Below the pieces are notes generated by a model, which was given only the letters and a program-made list of their open reading frames with translations, made no database searches and was not told the DNA's origin. 64,000 nt of DNA, taken from positions 7,254,001-7,318,000 of the forward strand of contig NZ_CP086322.1 of assembly GCF_023277745.1 (NCBI RefSeq), in the 5' to 3' direction. Positions 33,647-50,990 of the stretch are shown piece after piece. This DNA comes from Streptomyces halobius. GTDB lineage: Bacteria > Actinomycetota > Actinomycetes > Streptomycetales > Streptomycetaceae. Positions within the stretch are counted from its first letter, which is position 1; the number at the start of each line of letters is the position of its first letter. Both the position numbers and the translations under genes were made by a program.

Positions 33647-35322
33647 CCATCTCCACCCCCAGCATCCTCCCGTTCGGTGGGGCCGTCACCTGTCCCTCCG
33701 CGTCGATCGAGCACTCGCCGTAACGGGCGGTGCGCTGCTCCGGCGGTCGGTCCTGGTCCCCGCGCTGCCGTCTCCGCGATCGCGATCGCATGCGTTGGTC
33801 TGCTGCTTGGCTTCCTTGGCCTGCTCGGGCTGCTCGTCGGCGGGGCGGGGGTCGCCCGCCGGGTGTGTGTTGATCCACGACAGTCCTCCGATGTCGAGTC
33901 GTTTCCGGCGCGTGTCACCGCTACATACGCCAAGCGCGCCTCGTCGATATCGATGGGCCCGGGGAGCGGCGCGCCGTCCTCGCCGTGTTCGTCGAGATCT
34001 TCGGGGCCGGTGAAATCGTCCGCGACGCGCACGCTCGCCCACTCCCTTCCCTTGGCCCGATGGGCTGTGGAGACCGTCACCTCGGCCGCTTCCTCGGACG
34101 TCAGCCGGGACAGGGCGCGGAGCAGCGCTTCCGTGCCGTGCTCGTCGACGAGTTCCACCAGTGGCAGCAGGTCGCGGCCGGCCGGGTCACATTCCGCGTA
34201 CTCGCGCAGTTCCGCCCAGGTCTCGAAGAGCATCAGCTCGGGGTGGGAGGTGCGGCGTCCGGTCTCAAGGTCATGAGCGGCCCGCGCCAGCGCGCTCAGT
34301 GCCTCGCCACCGCCCGCGAGCGCGACGCGGCGGCCCGCCTCCAGCTGCCGTATCACCTCCACCATCGCCCCGACGTTCGATCGGCAGAGGATCGCCTGTG
34401 GCTCGCGGAGCGTGGTCAACTCCGTGGCCAGCAACGGCGATCCGGTGAGCCGGATCGGTGCGCCGACGATCGTCAGCCAGCGGTTGGCCTCGGCCGCGAG
34501 CGTGGGTCCGAAGCGGAAGGAGCGGGAGAGGCTGAGCTGTCGGCCGTCGAATCCGGTCATGACGTCGCGCGCGCCGCGCCAGCCGTAGATCGCCTGGGCC
34601 GAGTCCCCGACGAGCACCAGCTGGGCGTGGTCGCGCTGCGCCGTGAAGACCTGCTCGATCACGGGGTTGGTGTCCTGGGCTTCGTCCAGGAGCAGGAAGT
34701 CCCCGGGGATGACTGGATCTCGCAGGGCCCACATCTCGAGGTAGTGGTCGTGTTCAAAGCGCACGACGCCATGGTCCGGGTGTTGCAGATCGGCCCAGGC
34801 TTTGCGTGCGTAGGGGAGGACGAGGCCGGCGAGTTGATCGTGCTGGGACTCTGATTCGGCTCCCCGTAAAGGCGGGACGTGGTGGCGCGCGATCTCTTTG
34901 TCGGCCGACTGACAGAATCGCGTGACTGTGCGCAGGGCCGTGTAGGAGAGTGCCTTGTTGTTGACCTTGCGTGTGCCGATGTGTACGGACATCCCGTCGT
35001 CGATGCCCAGGGCGGCGCCTGTTCTCCAGCCCGCTTGGCGAGGGGCGTTCATCCGCGCCGCGTACCTTCTGCCGACCGCGGTGTAGGCGAGGGAGTGGGC
35101 GGTTCCGCAGGTCACTTCGGAGGGGAGGACGCGGGCGGCGTCGCGCGCGATGGCTCTGTTGAAGGCGATGTAGCGGCCGAGTCGGCCCTGCCGCCGCGCT
35201 TCGTGCGCGAGCATCGCGAGGCTTGTCGTCTTGCCTGTGCCGGCACCGGCCTGGATCACGAGATGCGAGCGGGCCCGAAAGGCGTCGGCCGCGGCGGCCT
35301 GCTCGGCTGTGGGGGTGTGCAT
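33598..35322 (-). CDS. UvrD/REP-like ATP-dependent helicase, C-terminus frameshifted
   Basis: A 574-residue SF1 helicase frame. Walker A is QAGAGTGKTTSLA (residues 25-37), motif Ia/Ib region CGTAHSLAYTAVG, motif II LLLDEAQDTN, motif III VGDSAQAIYGWRGA, motif V VSTAHRAKGREW, and motif VI AYVAVTRA. At about 33917 the frame leaves the family sequence: the alternative frame reads RKRLDIGGLSWINTHPAGDP and ends at 33686. A single missing C in a GCC(C)GG run explains it. Motif VI therefore loses its second arginine as read here. Start ATG at 35322 follows GGAG. It should unwind DNA if the frame is repaired. Pseudogene or sequence error cannot be separated. Confidence 0.75.
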   Translation of the reverse strand: MHTPTAEQAAAADAFRARSHLVIQAGAGTGKTTSLAMLAHEARRQGRLGRYIAFNRAIARDAARVLPSEVTCGTAHSLAYTAVGRRYAARMNAPRQAGWRTGAALGIDDGMSVHIGTRKVNNKALSYTALRTVTRFCQSADKEIARHHVPPLRGAESESQHDQLAGLVLPYARKAWADLQHPDHGVVRFEHDHYLEMWALRDPVIPGDFLLLDEAQDTNPVIEQVFTAQRDHAQLVLVGDSAQAIYGWRGARDVMTGFDGRQLSLSRSFRFGPTLAAEANRWLTIVGAPIRLTGSPLLATELTTLREPQAILCRSNVGAMVEVIRQLEAGRRVALAGGGEALSALARAAHDLETGRRTSHPELMLFETWAELREYAECDPAGRDLLPLVELVDEHGTEALLRALSRLTSEEAAEVTVSTAHRAKGREWASVRVADDFTGPEDLDEHGEDGAPLPGPIDIDEARLAYVAVTRAGNDSTSEDCRGSTHTRRATPAPPTSSPSRPRKPSSRPTHAIAIAETAARGPGPTAGAAHRPLRRVLDRRGGTGDGPTEREDAGGGDGCRCVREMNPFTHAAR

Positions 35323-35496
35323 GGGAACTCCTCAACGACACTGGGCAGTTACTGAGCGTGATGTTATTACTCACTGTAACGGATCTCGGAGTGATGTCGA
35401 GTGGTGATTCGCGGCCTGTGGATAACTCCGGTCCAACCCTTTTGAGGTGGCCGAACGTGCCGTCGTCGACCGATGCCGGCCTGCGCGGGGGAGGAA
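35323..35496. other. Divergent intergenic region between the UvrD-like helicase and the SNF2 operon (left part)
   Basis: About 440 bases separate the two starts (to 35765). The left part is relatively AT-rich (a TTATTACTCACTGTAAC stretch near 35363-35380), the likely promoter zone of the minus-strand helicase. The right part holds the damage-type promoter described at 35497 and then a 240-base GC-rich leader before the SNF2 ATG, in which I see no convincing gene. Confidence 0.5.
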
Positions 35497-35519
35497 TTGT
35501 CAGTGCCGTCTGCTTCCAT
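35497..35519 (+). promoter_or_regulatory. RecA-NDp/PafBC-like promoter of the SNF2-SWIM-helicase operon
   Basis: TTGTCAGTG (35497-35505), 8 bases, then TTCCAT (35514-35519). The first element is a perfect match to the damage promoter seen at polA, ogt and uvrB; the -10 differs from TAnnnT at one of its three fixed positions. Unlike the other three, it lies about 247 bases before the start codon, so the transcript would have a long leader. Confidence 0.5.
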
Positions 35520-35765
35520 CGGACTCACGCAGGGTCGCTGCGGCGGGACCGCCGCAGACGGCCGCATCGACAGGGGGAACGGACGGCATGGGCATCGCGT
35601 GGGGATGGGGAACCAGATCGCAGTGCGACCGTAGACTCGCAGGTCGGCGCCGCGAGACGGAGCCGGGCCCGGCAGACCGGGCAGACCCGGCAGGCGCCGG
35701 CATCGGCGCGGGGGGATCGGCCTCCGAGGGATCGAAGACCGAAGGATCAATCGCGAGGGGACGGC

Positions 35766-38612
35766 ATGGATAGCTGGTGGGAGGCGGCCCGATGTGCCGT
35801 GGTCTTCCTGCCCGCCCAGCTGCCGCGTGCCGGGAAGCTCGCGTTCTGGCGGCCCGATGGTGGCCCGCTTCCGGGTGTTCGGCACGGAGGGGGAACGGGA
35901 GATCAGGAGCCGGCCGCCGAGCCGGCACAGCTGACCGTCGCCCGTCGCCATGGAAACGGCGCACGCCACCGCACGGTCCCCGCCGCGCTGCTCCCGCCGG
36001 CAGAGGCCGTACCGCTGCTGGTCCGCGCCCGGCACGATCCGCACGCTCACCCAGCCGCGGCCTGCTGGGGTGCGGCCGCCTTGCACGCCTTGCACCTCGC
36101 CGCGCGCGGAAGGCTGCTGCCGGGGCTGACCGCCGACGACACCGACGCCTGGCGCGCCGGTCCCCTGGACCCGGAGGACGTCGCGCACCTCCGGGCCATC
36201 GCCGCCGCCATGCCCGCAGAGGCATACGCGGTGCCGCTCCCCGGGAGCCGCCCGCTCCGGCTGCCTGACCCGGCGTCCCTGGTGCGGCTCTTCGTGGACG
36301 CGGTCGTCGACGCACTGCCGCGAACCCCCGCCGCCGAGCTCGTGGTCGGTGCCCCGTTTGCCGCGACAGCACCGCAACATCTGCCCCGCGCCCGGCAATG
36401 GGCCGCCGAGGTCGCGGCCGGCGTCGACGCGGGGGTCCGGCTGTCGTTGCGCCTCGACCTCTCACCGCACCGGCTCTTCGACGCCACACGCGACATCGCC
36501 GCGGACGGCGGCGGGCAGGAGCGCAGTGCGGCGGCCGCCGTCCTGCAGGTGCACAGCCTCACCGACCCCACCCTGGTCACCGACGCCCGCCAACTGTGGG
36601 AGGGCGTAGCCCCCGATGGCTTCGGCCCGCGGTCCCGCGTCGACACCCTTCTCGCGCTGCGCCGCGCCGCCCGCGTCTGGGCCCCGCTCGGCCGCGTCCT
36701 GGAGCGGCCCGTCCCCGACGTACTGCCGCTCAGCGAGGACGAGTTGTACGAGCTGCTGGGCGCGGCCGCGCCACGACTGGGCGCCGCCGGCGTGGCCGTG
36801 CACTGGCCCAAGGAGCTCGCCCGCGGTCTGACGGCCGCGGCGGTGCTGCGCCCCGCACCGGGGTCGGCAGCGGACGGCTTCGGCTTCTTCGACACCAGGG
36901 AACTCCTGCAATTCCGCTGGCAGGTGGCGATGGACGGCACACCGCTGACCGAAGCGGAAATGGACGCCCTCGCCGAGTCGCACCGCCCCGTGGTCCGGCT
37001 GCGCGACCAGTGGGTACTGGTCGATCCCGCGCTCGTACGCAAGGCCCGTAAACGCGAACTGGGCTATCTGGACCCGGTCGACGCACTCGCCGCGACCCTC
37101 ACCGGCACCACGGACGTGGACGGCGAAGAGGTCGAGGTGGTGCCCCTGGGCGCCCTCGCCGCGCTGCGCGGACGCCTGACCACCGAAGCCGGCCCGCTGC
37201 CCCAGCCGCCCGGACTGCGGGCGACCCTCCGCGACTACCAACTACGGGGCATGACCTGGCTCGACACCATGACCTCGATCGGCCTCGGCGGCTGCCTCGC
37301 CGACGACATGGGCCTCGGCAAGACCGTCACCGTCATCGCGCTCTACCTCCATCGGCGGCCCACCGCCCCCGTCCTCGTCGTCTGCCCCGCCTCCCTCCTC
37401 GGCAACTGGCAGCGCGAGATCGAACGCTTCGCTCCCGGGACGCCCGTACGGCGCTTCCACGGCGCCGGCCGCAGCCTCGACGGCCTGGACGGCGGCTTCG
37501 TCCTGACCACCTACGGGACGATGCGCAGCAGCGCCGCCCAACTGGCCGGCCGGCCTTGGGCATGGGTCGTCGCCGATGAGGCACAGCATGTGAAGAACCC
37601 GCGGTCCTCCACGGCCAAGGCGCTGCGCGGTATCACGGCGCCGGCGCGGATCGCCCTCACCGGTACCCCCGTGGAGAACAACCTCTCCGAGCTGTGGGCC
37701 CTCCTCGACTGGACGACTCCCGGGCTCCTCGGTTCCCTCAAGACCTTCCGCGCATTGCACGCCCGCGAGGTCGAGGGCGGCGCGGATCCGGAGGCGGCGC
37801 AGCGGCTGGCCAGACTGGTGCGTCCGTTCATCCTCCGCCGCAGGAAATCGGATCCCGGTATCGCGCCCGAACTCCCGCCCAAGACGGAGACCGACCACCC
37901 GGTGGCACTGGGCCGCGAACAGGCCGCGCTGTATCAGGCCGTCGTCCGCGAGACGCTCTCCCGGATCGAGGGCGCCGAGGGCATCGCGCGCCGGGGCCTG
38001 GTGATGAAGCTGCTCACCGCCCTCAAGCAGATCTGCAACCACCCCGCGCAGTATCTGAAGGAGGCCGCGCCCGGCCTGGCCGCCCGCTCGGGGAAGCTCG
38101 AACTCCTCGACGAACTCCTGGACACCATCCTCGCCGAGGGCGGCGCCACCTTGGTCTTCACGCAGTACGTGGGGATGGCGCGGCTGCTCGAACGGCACCT
38201 CACCACCCGCGGCATTTCGAACCAGCTCCTGCACGGCGGGACCCCCGTAGCCGAACGGGAGAGGATGGTCGACCGCTTCCAGTCGGGGCACGCCCCGGTG
38301 TTCCTGCTGTCCCTCAAGGCGGCGGGCACCGGTCTCAACCTCACCCGCGCCGGCCACGTGATCCACTACGACCGCTGGTGGAATCCCGCGGTGGAGGAGC
38401 AGGCCACCGACCGTGCGTACCGCATCGGCCAGACCCAGCCCGTCCAGGTCCACCGCCTGGTCGCCGAGGGCACGGTCGAGGACAACATCGCCCAACTCCT
38501 CACCGCCAAGAGGGCCCTGGCCGACGCGGTGCTCTCCGGCGGTGAGGCCGCGCTCACCGAACTGTCCGACGCCGAGCTGGCAGACCTCGTCTCCCTGAGG
38601 AGGCCCGCATGA
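35766..38612 (+). CDS. SNF2-family DEAD/DEAH-box helicase (operon gene 1)
   Basis: A 948-residue SWI2/SNF2 ATPase. The N-terminal 450 residues are a bacterial SNF2-associated region. The helicase core has DDMGLGKTVTVIALYL (motif I, near residue 515), VVADEAQHVKNPRSS (motif II), LTGTPVENNLSELWALL (motif III), then the C-lobe with VFTQYVGMARLLERHL, LLSLKAAGTGLNLTRA (motif V) and WWNPAVEEQATDRAYRIGQ (motif VI). These proteins translocate on duplex DNA and remodel bound protein. ATG at 35766 has GGGGACGG just upstream; the frame is open to 35223 but that part has no family similarity. Its stop overlaps the next ATG (ATGA). Confidence 0.92.
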   Translation: MDSWWEAARCAVVFLPAQLPRAGKLAFWRPDGGPLPGVRHGGGTGDQEPAAEPAQLTVARRHGNGARHRTVPAALLPPAEAVPLLVRARHDPHAHPAAACWGAAALHALHLAARGRLLPGLTADDTDAWRAGPLDPEDVAHLRAIAAAMPAEAYAVPLPGSRPLRLPDPASLVRLFVDAVVDALPRTPAAELVVGAPFAATAPQHLPRARQWAAEVAAGVDAGVRLSLRLDLSPHRLFDATRDIAADGGGQERSAAAAVLQVHSLTDPTLVTDARQLWEGVAPDGFGPRSRVDTLLALRRAARVWAPLGRVLERPVPDVLPLSEDELYELLGAAAPRLGAAGVAVHWPKELARGLTAAAVLRPAPGSAADGFGFFDTRELLQFRWQVAMDGTPLTEAEMDALAESHRPVVRLRDQWVLVDPALVRKARKRELGYLDPVDALAATLTGTTDVDGEEVEVVPLGALAALRGRLTTEAGPLPQPPGLRATLRDYQLRGMTWLDTMTSIGLGGCLADDMGLGKTVTVIALYLHRRPTAPVLVVCPASLLGNWQREIERFAPGTPVRRFHGAGRSLDGLDGGFVLTTYGTMRSSAAQLAGRPWAWVVADEAQHVKNPRSSTAKALRGITAPARIALTGTPVENNLSELWALLDWTTPGLLGSLKTFRALHAREVEGGADPEAAQRLARLVRPFILRRRKSDPGIAPELPPKTETDHPVALGREQAALYQAVVRETLSRIEGAEGIARRGLVMKLLTALKQICNHPAQYLKEAAPGLAARSGKLELLDELLDTILAEGGATLVFTQYVGMARLLERHLTTRGISNQLLHGGTPVAERERMVDRFQSGHAPVFLLSLKAAGTGLNLTRAGHVIHYDRWWNPAVEEQATDRAYRIGQTQPVQVHRLVAEGTVEDNIAQLLTAKRALADAVLSGGEAALTELSDAELADLVSLRRPA

Positions 38613-40084
38613 GCCCCCGCCGCACGCCCGGCCGTCACGCCGCCGGCGGCCGCACCGCCGCGGCGGAGCGGTCGGTCCGCGCGGACCGTTCCCGTACGTT
38701 CCCGCCGCTGCCGCCCCGCACCGGTGCCCGAGGTCTGTTCGCCGCATCCTGGTGGGGGAGTGCCTGGCTGGACGCCCTGGAGACCACGGCCCTGGACAGC
38801 GCCCGGCTCGCCCGCGGCCGGGCCTACGCCCGGGACGGCCATGTGGACACCATCAACATCACACCGGGCCGCATCATCGCCACCGTACGCGGCAGCAGGC
38901 CGCGTCCCTACAGCGCGGAAGTCCGCCTCGCACCCCTCACCGACGCGGAATGGGACCGTCTCCTCGACGCCATCGCCGCAGAGCCCGCCCAGCTCACCGC
39001 CCTCCTGGCCAAGAAGCTGCCCAACGCCTTGGCCGAAGGAGAGGTGCGCCTCCTCCCGGGGCCGGGCGACCTCGTGCCCCGCTGCTCCTGCCCCGACAGC
39101 GGATGGCCCTGCAAGCACGCCGCCGCGCTCTGTTTCCAGGTGGCCCGTCTGCTGGACGCGGACCCGTTCGTCCTGCTGCTGATGCGCGGCCGTGGCGAAC
39201 GCGAACTTCTCGACGAACTCTCCCGCCGCAACGCCACCCACACCGCCCGCGAGAGCCGTGGCCATGCGCTGGTGTCCCCGTCGCCCGGTGCCGCAGGCTC
39301 CGCACCCGGGGCCGCCCGAGCGGCCACCGGACACCCGGGTGGACAAGCCCCTGACGCTCTTTCCGGAGCATCCCCGGGAGAGCACGCCACGCCGACAACG
39401 CCCACGTCCCACGGCGTCCTCGCTCGTGAGGCCCTGGCAGACCGTCCCCGTCCGCCGCTCCCGCCGCCCCTGCCCGCACCCCGCCAGGCCGGGCGACCGC
39501 CGGCCCTCCCGGACGCCGGCGGCCTCCCTCTCGATCCGGCCGCCCTCGAATTCCTGGCCGCCGACGCCGCGGCCCGCGCTCACGCCTGCGTGGCCGCTGC
39601 CGGAAGCCCCGCCTCCGGCGGTGAACGGCCGTCCGTCCCCAGCCCGTTCCCGGCGCTGCCCCCATGGGGGGATGCCATCCGCCTGGCCGCCACGGCTCAC
39701 CCCACCGCCGGTCTCACCTCCACCACCCGAGCGCTCTTCCGCGACCTCGCGGCGGCCACGGGCCGCACCCCCACGGATGTGGCCCGCGCCGTCGCCGCCT
39801 GGCGTCAGGGCGGACCCGAAGGGCTCGCGCTCCTCGAATCCACCTGGAACCCCCCGGCCGGCGACTTCGACCGGGCCCGCGGCGCCCTCCTCGCCGCGGA
39901 CCTCCCGGCCCTGCGCCCGCGCCACAATCACCTCACCGCCCCCGACCGGGGCATCCAGCTCCGCTACGGCCACGACAACCGCTGGTATCCCTACGAATCC
40001 GAGCCCGGTGCCGAGGACTGGTGGCCCACCGGGCCGGCGGACCCCGACCCCGTAGGCGCCCTCACCACCCTGCTCGCGCGATGA
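38609..40084 (+). CDS. SWIM zinc-finger protein (operon gene 2)
   Basis: A 491-residue protein. The SWIM motif CSCPDSGWPCKHAAALC (CxC-xn-CxH) is at about residues 157-173, preceded by the usual YSAEVRLAPLTDAEWDRLL region. Residues about 210-290 are Pro/Ala/Gly-rich linker. A second globular part near 340-470 includes LFRDLAAATGRTPTDVARAVA and ends WWPTGPADPDP. SWIM domains bind DNA or protein and are often linked to SNF2 ATPases in bacteria. It is coupled at both ends by ATGA overlaps (38609-38612 and 40081-40084), so all three proteins are probably made in fixed ratio. Confidence 0.9.
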   Translation: MSPRRTPGRHAAGGRTAAAERSVRADRSRTFPPLPPRTGARGLFAASWWGSAWLDALETTALDSARLARGRAYARDGHVDTINITPGRIIATVRGSRPRPYSAEVRLAPLTDAEWDRLLDAIAAEPAQLTALLAKKLPNALAEGEVRLLPGPGDLVPRCSCPDSGWPCKHAAALCFQVARLLDADPFVLLLMRGRGERELLDELSRRNATHTARESRGHALVSPSPGAAGSAPGAARAATGHPGGQAPDALSGASPGEHATPTTPTSHGVLAREALADRPRPPLPPPLPAPRQAGRPPALPDAGGLPLDPAALEFLAADAAARAHACVAAAGSPASGGERPSVPSPFPALPPWGDAIRLAATAHPTAGLTSTTRALFRDLAAATGRTPTDVARAVAAWRQGGPEGLALLESTWNPPAGDFDRARGALLAADLPALRPRHNHLTAPDRGIQLRYGHDNRWYPYESEPGAEDWWPTGPADPDPVGALTTLLAR

Positions 40085-42009
40085 CTAACCTCAAGGCCGT
40101 GGAAGGTCTCGACACACTCACCCGATCCCTCGCACAGCGCACCCCCGAGCAGCTCGCCGCACTCCTCACCCGGCATGCCGAGCCGCTCGCCCGCCGGCCC
40201 GCGCCCACCCGACTCCGTGGCCTGGCCAGTGCCTTGTGGTCGTACGAAACCCTCCACCACCTGGTGCTGCACCTCGACCACCCCCGGCTCCAGGTGCTCG
40301 CCGCCACCGCGCGCATCAGTCAGGACCGCGCCGGGCGCGAGGCCCCCGCTCCCGCCGCGGGCGCCGACTACCAGTCCCTGATGGCACACCGGCTGTCCTT
40401 CCCGCAGCTGGCCACCGAACCCGTCCCGCCCGAGGATGTCCATGCCGCGCTCGGCGCCACCGCACCGGGCCCCGCGCGTACCGCCGCCGAGAGCGCCCTG
40501 GACTCCCTCTACGAGGACGGACTCGCCGCCCCGGCCGAGGACGGCGGCATCGTCGTCCCGCCGCGCACCCCGCAGCTCCTGGCCGCGCACGACCTCGGTC
40601 CCTTCGTCCCGCACGCCCCGCAGCCCACCCCCGACGCCACGGCATCCCCCGCCCGCCCCGGACTCCCCGCGACCACGCTCGCCCCGACCTCGCCGTACGA
40701 CGAATCCCGGGCCGCCGTGGCGCCCCTCGCCGCCACCGTGGAACGCCTCCTCGCCTCCCTGGCCACGCGACCCGCGGCGCTGCGCAAGTCGGGCGGCCTG
40801 GCCATCCGCGAGATCAAACGACTGGCCAAAGCGGCCGGCACCACCGAACCGCACACCCGGCTCCTTCTCGACCTCACCCTCGCCGCCGACCTGATCGCGC
40901 TGACCCGCACCCCGGCCGGCGTCACCGCGCTCCCCACCGACGCCTACGACGACTGGCTCACCCGCCCACCAGGCGAACGCCTTGCCCCCGTCCTCGCCGC
41001 CTGGTCCGCCCTCTGGGCCGTCCCCACCCACACTCCCTTCGGGGAGACCCCGACCGCATTGGTCCGCGGACACGACCGGCACGCCCCGGCCCTCCGGTAC
41101 GCGCTCCTGGCCGCCCTGGCCGCCGTCCCCCTCGGCGCCGGAACGCCCCTCCCGCCTACGGCAGCCGCCGACGAGCAGGGCGCCTTGCCGGAGCTGCTGC
41201 GGACAGCCGCCTGGCACCGGCCCCTCGCCCTCGGCGGGCAGCCGATGGCCGAGGACCGCGCCGCGCACACCCTGCACGAAGCCGCCTACCTCGGCCTGAC
41301 CGCCCACGGCACCCTCACCCCCCTGGGCCACGCGCTTCTCGCCGACCCGCACTCCCTCGGCGAACCGCTCCGCGCTCTGCTCCCGCCGCCCCTCGAACGG
41401 GCCCACTTCCAGGCCGATTTGACCGCCGTCGTCGCCGGGCGCCCCGCCGCCGCCCTCGCCGAGCTGCTCGCCTCCTCGGCCGACCGCGAGTCCGAAGGCC
41501 ACGCCGTCACCTGGCGCTTCACCCCCGCCTCCGTACGGCGCGCCCTGGACACCGGCCGGACCGCCGACACCCTCCTCGACGACCTCACCGCGGCCTCGGC
41601 GACCGGCACCCTGCCGCAGCCACTCGACTACCTCGTCCGGGACACCGCCCGCACCCACGGCCGGATGCGCGTCCTGCCCGCCGCCTGCTGCATCCGCTCC
41701 GAGGACGAAGCCCTGATCGGCGAACTCGCCGCGCACCGAGCCCTGCGCGACCTCGGGCTCCGGGCCATCGCCCCGACCGTCCTGGTCAGCGGCCGCCCTC
41801 CGGCCACCACCCTGGAGGCCCTCCGCGCGGCGGGCTACGCCCCCACCCTGGAGTCCGACACCGGCACCACGACCGTCGAACGCCTCCCCGCACATCGCAC
41901 CAAGGCCGCCACCCCCAGCCGGGACCCGGGCGCCCCGCTCACCCTGGCGAAGCGCCTCCTGGGGCACGCACCGGAGGACCAGGAGGACCTGCAGAGCAGC
42001 CGAGCATGA
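40081..42009 (+). CDS. Helicase-associated domain protein (Helicase_C_3/XPB-like), no ATPase motifs (operon gene 3)
   Basis: A 642-residue protein. The C-terminal third carries the helicase-associated domain found in actinobacterial XPB/Ssl2-neighbour proteins: LERAHFQADLTAVVAGRP, VTWRFTPASVRRALDTGRTA, LPQPLDYLVRDTARTHG, CCIRSEDEALIGEL and TLEALRAAGYAPTLES. The middle part resembles winged-helix modules (LAIREIKRLAKAAGTTEPH). No Walker A or DExx box is present, so it is not itself a helicase. ATG at 40081 overlaps the stop of the SWIM gene; a longer frame from 39664 is only the alternative frame of that gene. Likely a DNA-binding or regulatory partner of the SNF2 ATPase (inference). Confidence 0.8.
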   Translation: MTNLKAVEGLDTLTRSLAQRTPEQLAALLTRHAEPLARRPAPTRLRGLASALWSYETLHHLVLHLDHPRLQVLAATARISQDRAGREAPAPAAGADYQSLMAHRLSFPQLATEPVPPEDVHAALGATAPGPARTAAESALDSLYEDGLAAPAEDGGIVVPPRTPQLLAAHDLGPFVPHAPQPTPDATASPARPGLPATTLAPTSPYDESRAAVAPLAATVERLLASLATRPAALRKSGGLAIREIKRLAKAAGTTEPHTRLLLDLTLAADLIALTRTPAGVTALPTDAYDDWLTRPPGERLAPVLAAWSALWAVPTHTPFGETPTALVRGHDRHAPALRYALLAALAAVPLGAGTPLPPTAAADEQGALPELLRTAAWHRPLALGGQPMAEDRAAHTLHEAAYLGLTAHGTLTPLGHALLADPHSLGEPLRALLPPPLERAHFQADLTAVVAGRPAAALAELLASSADRESEGHAVTWRFTPASVRRALDTGRTADTLLDDLTAASATGTLPQPLDYLVRDTARTHGRMRVLPAACCIRSEDEALIGELAAHRALRDLGLRAIAPTVLVSGRPPATTLEALRAAGYAPTLESDTGTTTVERLPAHRTKAATPSRDPGAPLTLAKRLLGHAPEDQEDLQSSRA

Positions 42010-49317: not shown

Positions 49318-49340
49318 AGCGTAGGACCCACCACTGACAA
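49318..49340 (-). promoter_or_regulatory. RecA-NDp/PafBC-type DNA-damage promoter of ogt
   Basis: On the minus strand: TTGTCAGTG (49340-49332), 8 bases, TACGCT (49323-49318). It is a perfect match to tTGTCRgtg-N8-TAnnnT. The ogt GTG at 49311 is the expected transcription start. Confidence 0.8.
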
Positions 49341-50967: not shown

Positions 50968-50990
50968 TTGTCAGTGGGGGGTCGTACGGT
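50968..50990 (+). promoter_or_regulatory. RecA-NDp/PafBC-type DNA-damage promoter of uvrB
   Basis: TTGTCAGTG (50968-50976), 8 bases, TACGGT (50985-50990): a perfect match. The ATG at 50998 is 8 bases after the -10, exactly as at polA (30 bases from the first T of the box to the start codon in both), so a leaderless mRNA is expected. Confidence 0.8.

Follow-up and report, generated by a model that had tools for sequence, protein, structure and literature searches.

What does a third gene, free of ATPase motifs, add to a pair of genes for an SNF2 ATPase and a SWIM zinc-finger protein, and does the resulting unit answer to DNA damage? The question is raised by a locus of Streptomyces halobius, analysed here within a stretch of 64,000 nucleotides (the window) of its 9.24 Mb single-contig genome, in which these three genes (the trio) lie behind the nine-base box TTGTCAGTG. 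As judged by sequence, the locus is a conserved three-gene operon accompanied by a divergent UvrD-like helicase gene and an invariant upstream box, and its predicted ATPase-less third subunit carries, towards the C-terminus, a domain of the family of the XPB N-terminal domain. We tentatively explain it as a lineage-specific, DNA-damage-linked extension of the SNF2-SWIM pair that is common in Streptomyces, in which a third subunit resembling p52 of TFIIH would couple the SNF2 motor to the helicase XPB; the induction of the operon, the complex, its partner and its substrate are what we infer. The features concerned are the following.

33907-35322, minus strand: UvrD-like (superfamily 1, SF1) helicase gene, conserved part, 472 amino acids; divergent from the operon and found in 20 of 20 relative trio loci.
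35497-35505, plus strand: TTGTCAGTG box, of the RecA-NDp / PafBC -26 type and without a mismatch in any of the 21 trio loci.
35511-35519, plus strand: TGC-TTCCAT, a candidate for an extended -10, its TG occupying 35511-35512 and its hexamer 35514-35519; the hexamer has T as second base in all 21 loci.
35628-35765, plus strand: in-frame stretch 5' of the SNF2 ATG, in relatives probably a translated SNF2 N-terminus; CGTAGACTCGC in 14 of 20 intergenic regions, in the SNF2 frame in 14 of 14.
35766-38612, plus strand: SNF2 ATPase gene, 948 amino acids (Pfam, NCBIfam SCO1167/SCO6262 family helicase, motifs).
38609-40084, plus strand: SWIM zinc-finger gene, 491 amino acids; CSCPDSGWPCKH at 39083-39118; ATGA overlap with the SNF2 gene.
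40081-42009, plus strand: third gene, PF13625 protein, 642 amino acids; lacks ATPase motifs and gives no match to WYL; overlaps the SWIM gene by ATGA.
41410-41772, plus strand: PF13625 domain of the third protein (residues 444-564), of a family shared with the N-terminal domain of this genome's XPB.

An earlier, sequence-only reading of the locus had described three genes on one strand joined by two ATGA overlaps (38609-38612 and 40081-40084), and both this arrangement and its coordinates and protein lengths were borne out. The overlaps support one transcriptional unit for the three genes, as far as gene layout can indicate it. To place the locus among its relatives, all of them Streptomyces by protein and by locus, we considered the best 120 of 376 matches to the third protein; these were 58-100% identical and, where named, from Streptomyces. 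A scan with one genome per species then gave 20 relative loci, in which the third gene is present by construction, so that the result concerns adjacency: in 20 of 20, SNF2 and SWIM genes lay upstream on the same strand with the UvrD-like gene divergent (L066 is fragmentary). The SNF2 and SWIM genes share an NTGA overlap in 19 of 20: in 18 it is ATGA and the SWIM frame is open, in another it is GTGA, and L059 gave no clear call. For SWIM and the third gene, such an overlap with a long open frame was found in 19 of 21, all but L059 and L066. The three-gene arrangement is not chance.

The unit is confined to a minority of the genus. A third-gene orthologue at E 1e-100 or better occurred in 6 of 150 Streptomyces genomes, that of S. 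halobius included, and an SNF2 relative, orthologue or paralogue, at E 1e-200 in 59 of 61. Among 20 further SNF2 loci of the pair type, drawn from the best matches of the genus SNF2 survey, the SWIM gene was present in 20, the third gene and the UvrD-like gene in none, and a damage box before SNF2 in one. Compared with these 20 and with two paralogous rows, the 20 trio SNF2 proteins formed one clade with support of 100/100, as expected if one lineage gained, or retained, the unit a single time. S. halobius itself has two more SNF2-SWIM pairs, at 4.88 Mb and 1.47 Mb, which the sequence-only reading did not include, as it did not include the divergent UvrD-like gene or two more PF13625 proteins of this genome, each with a WYL domain. 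At neither of the two pairs (L016, L017) did we find a match to the third protein or a TTGTCRGTG sequence; one TTGTCCGTG lies about 470 nucleotides upstream of the L016 SNF2 frame. That the third gene should be conserved beside the SNF2-SWIM pair in relatives, a condition set by the sequence-only reading itself, holds for the 20 loci found by the third gene, although 20 further SNF2-SWIM loci lack it.

The first two proteins form a pair of a known kind. The SNF2 protein matched SNF2-rel_dom (3e-57), DUF3670 and Helicase_C in Pfam, carries the motifs DDMGLGKT, DEAQ, LTGTP and QATDRAYRIGQ, and has as its closest solved chain 1z63, a helicase of the snf2/rad54 family. Against NF058637, the family that NCBIfam names after SCO1167/SCO6262, it scored 1508.6 bits (cut-off 1200), residues 9-945 aligning with positions 2-932 of a model of 932. 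The SWIM protein matched Pfam SWIM (9e-7), its CxCxnCxH ligands being present as CSCPDSGWPCKH, and 19 of 20 relatives share the motif, L066, a fragmentary locus, being the exception. That SNF2 and SWIM genes adjoin is said to have been remarked by Makarova in 2002. In S. coelicolor, SCO6262, of the same SNF2 family, appears in a sigma-E regulon table (PMC6767563) and in a developmental transcriptome table (PMC3897704), the entries of which take its function no further than 'helicase'.

SNF2 motors also occur in the Zorya, Dpd and DISARM systems, and genome defence had been put forward as one role for the trio. PADLOC profiles for DpdE (E 4e-123) and ZorD (1e-112) indeed matched residues of about 450-940 of the SNF2 protein, and GajB profiles matched the UvrD-like protein weakly (8e-14). 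However, scores against the NCBIfam defence models fell far below their cut-offs (280.3 bits against 1500 for ZorD, 60.5 against 500 for DpdE, 85.9 against 610 for DrmD), so that the SNF2 protein has no family-level match to Zorya, Dpd or DISARM at these cut-offs and shares with them the ATPase core alone. Pfam detected no nuclease domain in the trio, and the trio SNF2 proteins are one clade within the genus; moreover, matches were found in 12 of 72,556 plasmid records and 1 of 50,697 phage records, all below 60% identity and none covering 80% of the protein. Support for genome defence thus ends with the shared core, and a phage or plasmid defence system seems to us very improbable.

The third protein is what sets the trio apart. 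Its sole recognised domain is Helicase_C_3 (PF13625; 6e-35, 120.5 bits against a Pfam gathering cut-off of 34.2); a motif scan for a P-loop and for a DExx motif found neither, and Pfam gave no WYL match. A domain of the same family forms the N-terminus of this genome's XPB (residues 49-176, 136.3 bits, cut-off 34). We compared the two using three profiles, A1 being built from 56 third-protein relatives, none annotated as XPB, A2 being a domain profile that includes one XPB row, and A3 the domain profile without that row. First, A1 matched this genome's XPB domain over residues 71-203, with 25.5 bits. Second, A3 matched it in hhalign with a probability of 81% (E 1e-5). Third, the XPB domain of this genome alone retrieved yeast XPB at 1e-10, in the region assigned to the N-terminal domain by the TFIIH paper. 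Matching passages of PMC6422496 describe the XPB N-terminal domain in TFIIH as a protein-protein docking domain that pairs XPB with p52, which holds a second copy of the same fold. The third protein is thus best read as a putative docking subunit with an XPB-type domain. The sequence-only reading had it replace a nucleic-acid-binding module, which becomes less likely since the domain family to which it belongs docks proteins in TFIIH, on those same passages (PMC6422496).

A docking subunit need not reach XPB. The third protein could be in direct contact with SNF2, SWIM or DNA and serve only to target or regulate the SNF2 motor, XPB having no part in it, as might be expected from a gene that has evolved with the trio SNF2 clade and that, at 19 of 21 loci, overlaps the gene for SWIM. 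Yet its only recognised domain is that of XPB, which in the TFIIH passages docks onto another copy of the same fold, and Pfam found no PF13625-type domain in SNF2 or SWIM. Furthermore, in 11 mixed loci around more distant PF13625 proteins there was no SNF2 match nearby, XPB not having been sought there, so the domain does not need SNF2. We regard an SNF2-only role as somewhat unlikely. The same 11 wider loci had been considered as possible further cases of third-gene relatives beside SNF2, a candidate that was dropped, one short SWIM-like match in L101 being all that they offered. A separate observation from the PF13625 proteins is a standalone one in L105 (464-9732, genome G030), divergent to an operon of DUF2397, DUF2398 and SbcC type, which we take to resemble a Wadjet-like defence set.

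The link to damage depends on the upstream box. TTGTCAGTG was found exact, on the plus strand, in 21 of 21 UvrD-SNF2 intergenic regions, and was the only 9-mer on either strand common to all 20 regions compared; base composition predicts 0.0015 copies per region. The conserved stretch reads TTGTCAGTG, SYGTCTGS, TTYYMT, CGR. Counting from the first T of the box through TCG, 19 of 25 positions do not vary among 20 regions; conservation fades by about position 35, and there is little upstream of the box. In the window the -10 hexamer is TTCCAT, eight bases past the box, and a TG lies one base before it, an arrangement we take to be that of extended -10 promoters. RecA-NDp / PafBC promoters have the consensus 9-mer TTGTCRGTG with a -10 of TANNNT eight bases downstream. 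The 9-mer is present in all 21 trio loci, and a TANNNT at that distance in none of them. The earlier description of a box with a near-fit -10 is therefore right for the box and needs correcting for the hexamer, whose second base is T at all 21 loci where the consensus has A; a plain damage promoter is, for this reason, not demonstrated. Our preferred reading is a variant PafBC promoter with a candidate extended -10, and damage control of the trio appears likely.

Sites of the canonical type are abundant in this genome. There are 270 copies of TTGTCRGTG, against 76 of a reversed control, and 40 of TTGTCRGTG-N7/8-TANNNT, against 4. We fetched 30 canonical sites and scanned the genes behind 20 of them: eight were recA, uvrB, uvrC, two UvrD-type helicase genes, a dnaX-type, an AlkZ-like and an MGMT-type gene, two were MazG and PhoH genes, eight belonged to other families (transport, acetyltransferases, amine oxidase and others), and two gave no match. 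By this gene content the set is the RecA-NDp / PafBC regulon. Two of its sites lie in the window, at 49318-49340 (minus strand) and 50968-50990 (plus strand), before the MGMT-type gene and uvrB. Across the genus, TTGTCRGTG-N8-TANNNT was found in 41 of 41 Streptomyces genomes, that of S. halobius included, with 11-44 sites each (1062 against 6 for the control). In another trio genome a canonical site falls right at the end of the third-gene match (G052:C1:2620096-2620118), and the next gene there may be damage-controlled.

In mycobacteria, matching passages report PafBC to be activated by single-stranded DNA and to act at a -26 promoter motif (PMC11804915), and in S. coelicolor SCO6735, a gene with a RecA-NDp promoter, is reported in such passages to rise 5-fold after ultraviolet irradiation (PMC5087735). 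For S. venezuelae, an initial motif search described in passages of a 2022 study suggested that the Mycobacterium smegmatis PafBC motif is not conserved there (PMC9380542); the presence of RecA-NDp promoters in 41 of 41 Streptomyces genomes bears on this matter, which those passages left open. The proposal that the operon is damage-induced accordingly gains from a box that belongs to the motif before recA, uvrB and uvrC, and loses from a -10 that departs from TANNNT in all 21 loci.

This departure leaves room for another regulator. The conserved element could be its operator or promoter, sharing TTGTCAGTG by coincidence, and the operon could serve housekeeping, for example the recycling of stalled RNA polymerase. 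Such a reading would account for a trio spacer and -10 that are conserved, unlike those of canonical sites, and for a variant whose only other fit in the genome, conserved spacer included, has one mismatch; it also agrees with the 19 of 20 SNF2-SWIM loci without a third gene that have no such box before SNF2, and with the sigma-E table entry for SCO6262 (PMC6767563). Against it, the trio 9-mer is identical to that of 36 of the 40 canonical sites in this genome, and two other loci of the SNF2 family carry canonical sites: L161 (genome G012), a pair without the third gene, has the box with TAGACT just upstream of SNF2, and G055 has one with TAAACT about 130 nucleotides upstream of its SNF2 match. 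These last two suggest that the SNF2 motor family may have come under damage control, or stayed under it, on more than one occasion; in L152, L154 and L156, TTGTCGGTG occurs elsewhere in the locus and not before SNF2. We consider a different regulator unlikely, and continue with the variant PafBC promoter.

Two other interpretations of the intergenic region were tried and set aside. TTGTCAGTG might have had a coding origin, as the GTG start of a small open reading frame (GGAGG precedes it in the window), but a Shine-Dalgarno-like 5-mer lies within 14 nucleotides before the box in 3 of 20 loci, changes behind the GTG hit all three codon positions, and none of 20 loci departs from the T's that end TCT and G(C/G)T, both at third positions, for which reasons this was rejected. 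A second promoter was suggested by CGTAGACTCGC (35630-35640), which resembled a TAGACT -10. Its distance to the SNF2 ATG is 1 modulo 3 in all 14 regions that have it, which makes it more likely the translated start of a longer SNF2 protein in relatives; in the window a four-base difference, judged by eye, shifts the usual GTG out of frame. The GTA codon is also invariant, which tempers this reading. Separately, TGTGGATAA (complement TTATCCACA), which we take to be DnaA-box-like, lies at 35417-35425 and recurs in 19 of 20 UvrD-SNF2 intergenic regions.

Taken as a mechanism, our tentative explanation would run as follows. Damage would yield single-stranded DNA and so activate PafBC, which would bring RNA polymerase to the TTGTCAGTG box and raise expression of the operon. 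SNF2 would translocate on duplex DNA, with SWIM as an adaptor that binds DNA or protein. The third protein would work like p52 of TFIIH, its clutch-like domain pairing with a homologous domain, most plausibly that of XPB, encoded elsewhere in the genome. The SNF2 motor, thereby coupled to XPB as its putative partner, could then clear or remodel blocked DNA during repair. It is tempting to go further and see here a damage-induced bacterial counterpart of the TFIIH p52-XPB 'clutch', in which a p52-like subunit couples an SNF2 translocase to XPB by pairing of homologous domains, built onto a widespread SNF2-SWIM pair within one Streptomyces lineage; this stronger form is speculative and distinctly improbable.

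Several observations weigh against the explanation. With regard to p52, direct similarity is not significant: in the PDB set, A1 found four Tfb2/p52 sequences at E 0.25-0.67, its top matches being two solute-binding proteins at E 0.085. A2 did reach eukaryotic XPB at E 0.003-0.008, with Tfb2 at 0.77, but these XPB matches came from its one XPB row and were gone in A3, which up to E 5 found neither XPB nor Tfb2, and instead NELF C/D, L30 and others at 0.33-1. We therefore do not rest the case on a direct link to p52 or eukaryotic XPB, and slightly lowered our confidence both in the explanation and in the clutch counterpart. What remains for XPB is the shared Pfam family, the A1 and A3 matches to bacterial XPB and the yeast XPB match; the third protein's link to eukaryotic TFIIH, as traced by profiles, runs via bacterial XPB and not directly. 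With regard to XPB as partner, more than 3 Mb separate its gene from the trio, and XPB may already have a partner in the PF13625-WYL protein encoded beside it. With regard to induction, the hexamers of the 21 loci (TTCCAT, TTTCAT, TTCTAT or TTTCCT) all begin TT and lack the A of TANNNT. No start codon lies 5-9 nucleotides behind the trio -10 in the window, as one does at 14 of 30 canonical sites by scripted start picking, and SNF2 goes unmentioned in the main text of the S. venezuelae mitomycin study (PMC9380542).

This protein and the genome's other PF13625-WYL protein lie at 4.10 Mb and 1.76 Mb, respectively (L019 6675-9167, near XPB, and L018 6760-9210). In each the WYL domain is C-terminal, and the former protein is encoded about 2 kb upstream of the XPB helicase gene. 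Together with XPB, which has its own PF13625 domain (L019 11410-13191), it might represent a bacterial p52-like partner of XPB in its own right, with a WYL ligand domain of the type known from PafBC.

The UvrD-like neighbour deserves a comment. Its open frame extends to 33598, in a frame not shared by the relatives examined; it leaves the 18 relatives examined right after YVAVTRA (about 33907, minus strand), which reflects either a frameshift in this strain or a sequencing error. The family is present at E 1e-60 in 39 of 150 genomes, including all six with the trio. Its other copies are about 44-66% identical; in four genomes or more (among them G065, G084, G106 and G144) they are arranged as mirror-image pairs towards the two ends of the chromosome, which suggests terminal inverted repeats; S. 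halobius has a second copy near the start of its genome, at 35831-37210.

We found no study of an SNF2-SWIM-PF13625 trio in the titles and matching passages of the literature searched. What is new is that third gene, UvrD-like gene and box make up one lineage-specific unit, and that the third protein is linked to the XPB docking-domain family. To our knowledge, bacterial XPB has no settled function, and the same is true of the SNF2-SWIM pair; with an operon that ties an SNF2 motor to a protein of the XPB docking-domain family and to a damage box, a role can be put to the test for each.

Four known systems come closest to the trio. First, it shares with the SCO1167/SCO6262 family an SNF2 protein above the family cut-off followed by a SWIM gene, as in the 20 of 20 loci without the third gene, but an overlapping PF13625 gene and a divergent UvrD-like gene occur in 0 of those 20 and a damage box in 1 of 20, with a box also in G055. 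Second, its box is the same 9-mer as in 36 of the 40 TANNNT-type RecA-NDp / PafBC sites of this genome, whereas its -10 is TTYYMT with an upstream TG, and its spacer is conserved. Third, the third protein is 41-44% identical to the PF13625-WYL proteins from about residue 138 or 195 to 620 or 632, PF13625 included, but has no WYL match and is encoded behind SNF2-SWIM, not near XPB. Fourth, it resembles TFIIH p52/Tfb2 in being a predicted accessory protein without an ATPase, with a domain of the XPB N-terminal family towards its C-terminal end, and differs in that its Tfb2 match is not significant and the motor adjoining its gene is SNF2, not XPB.

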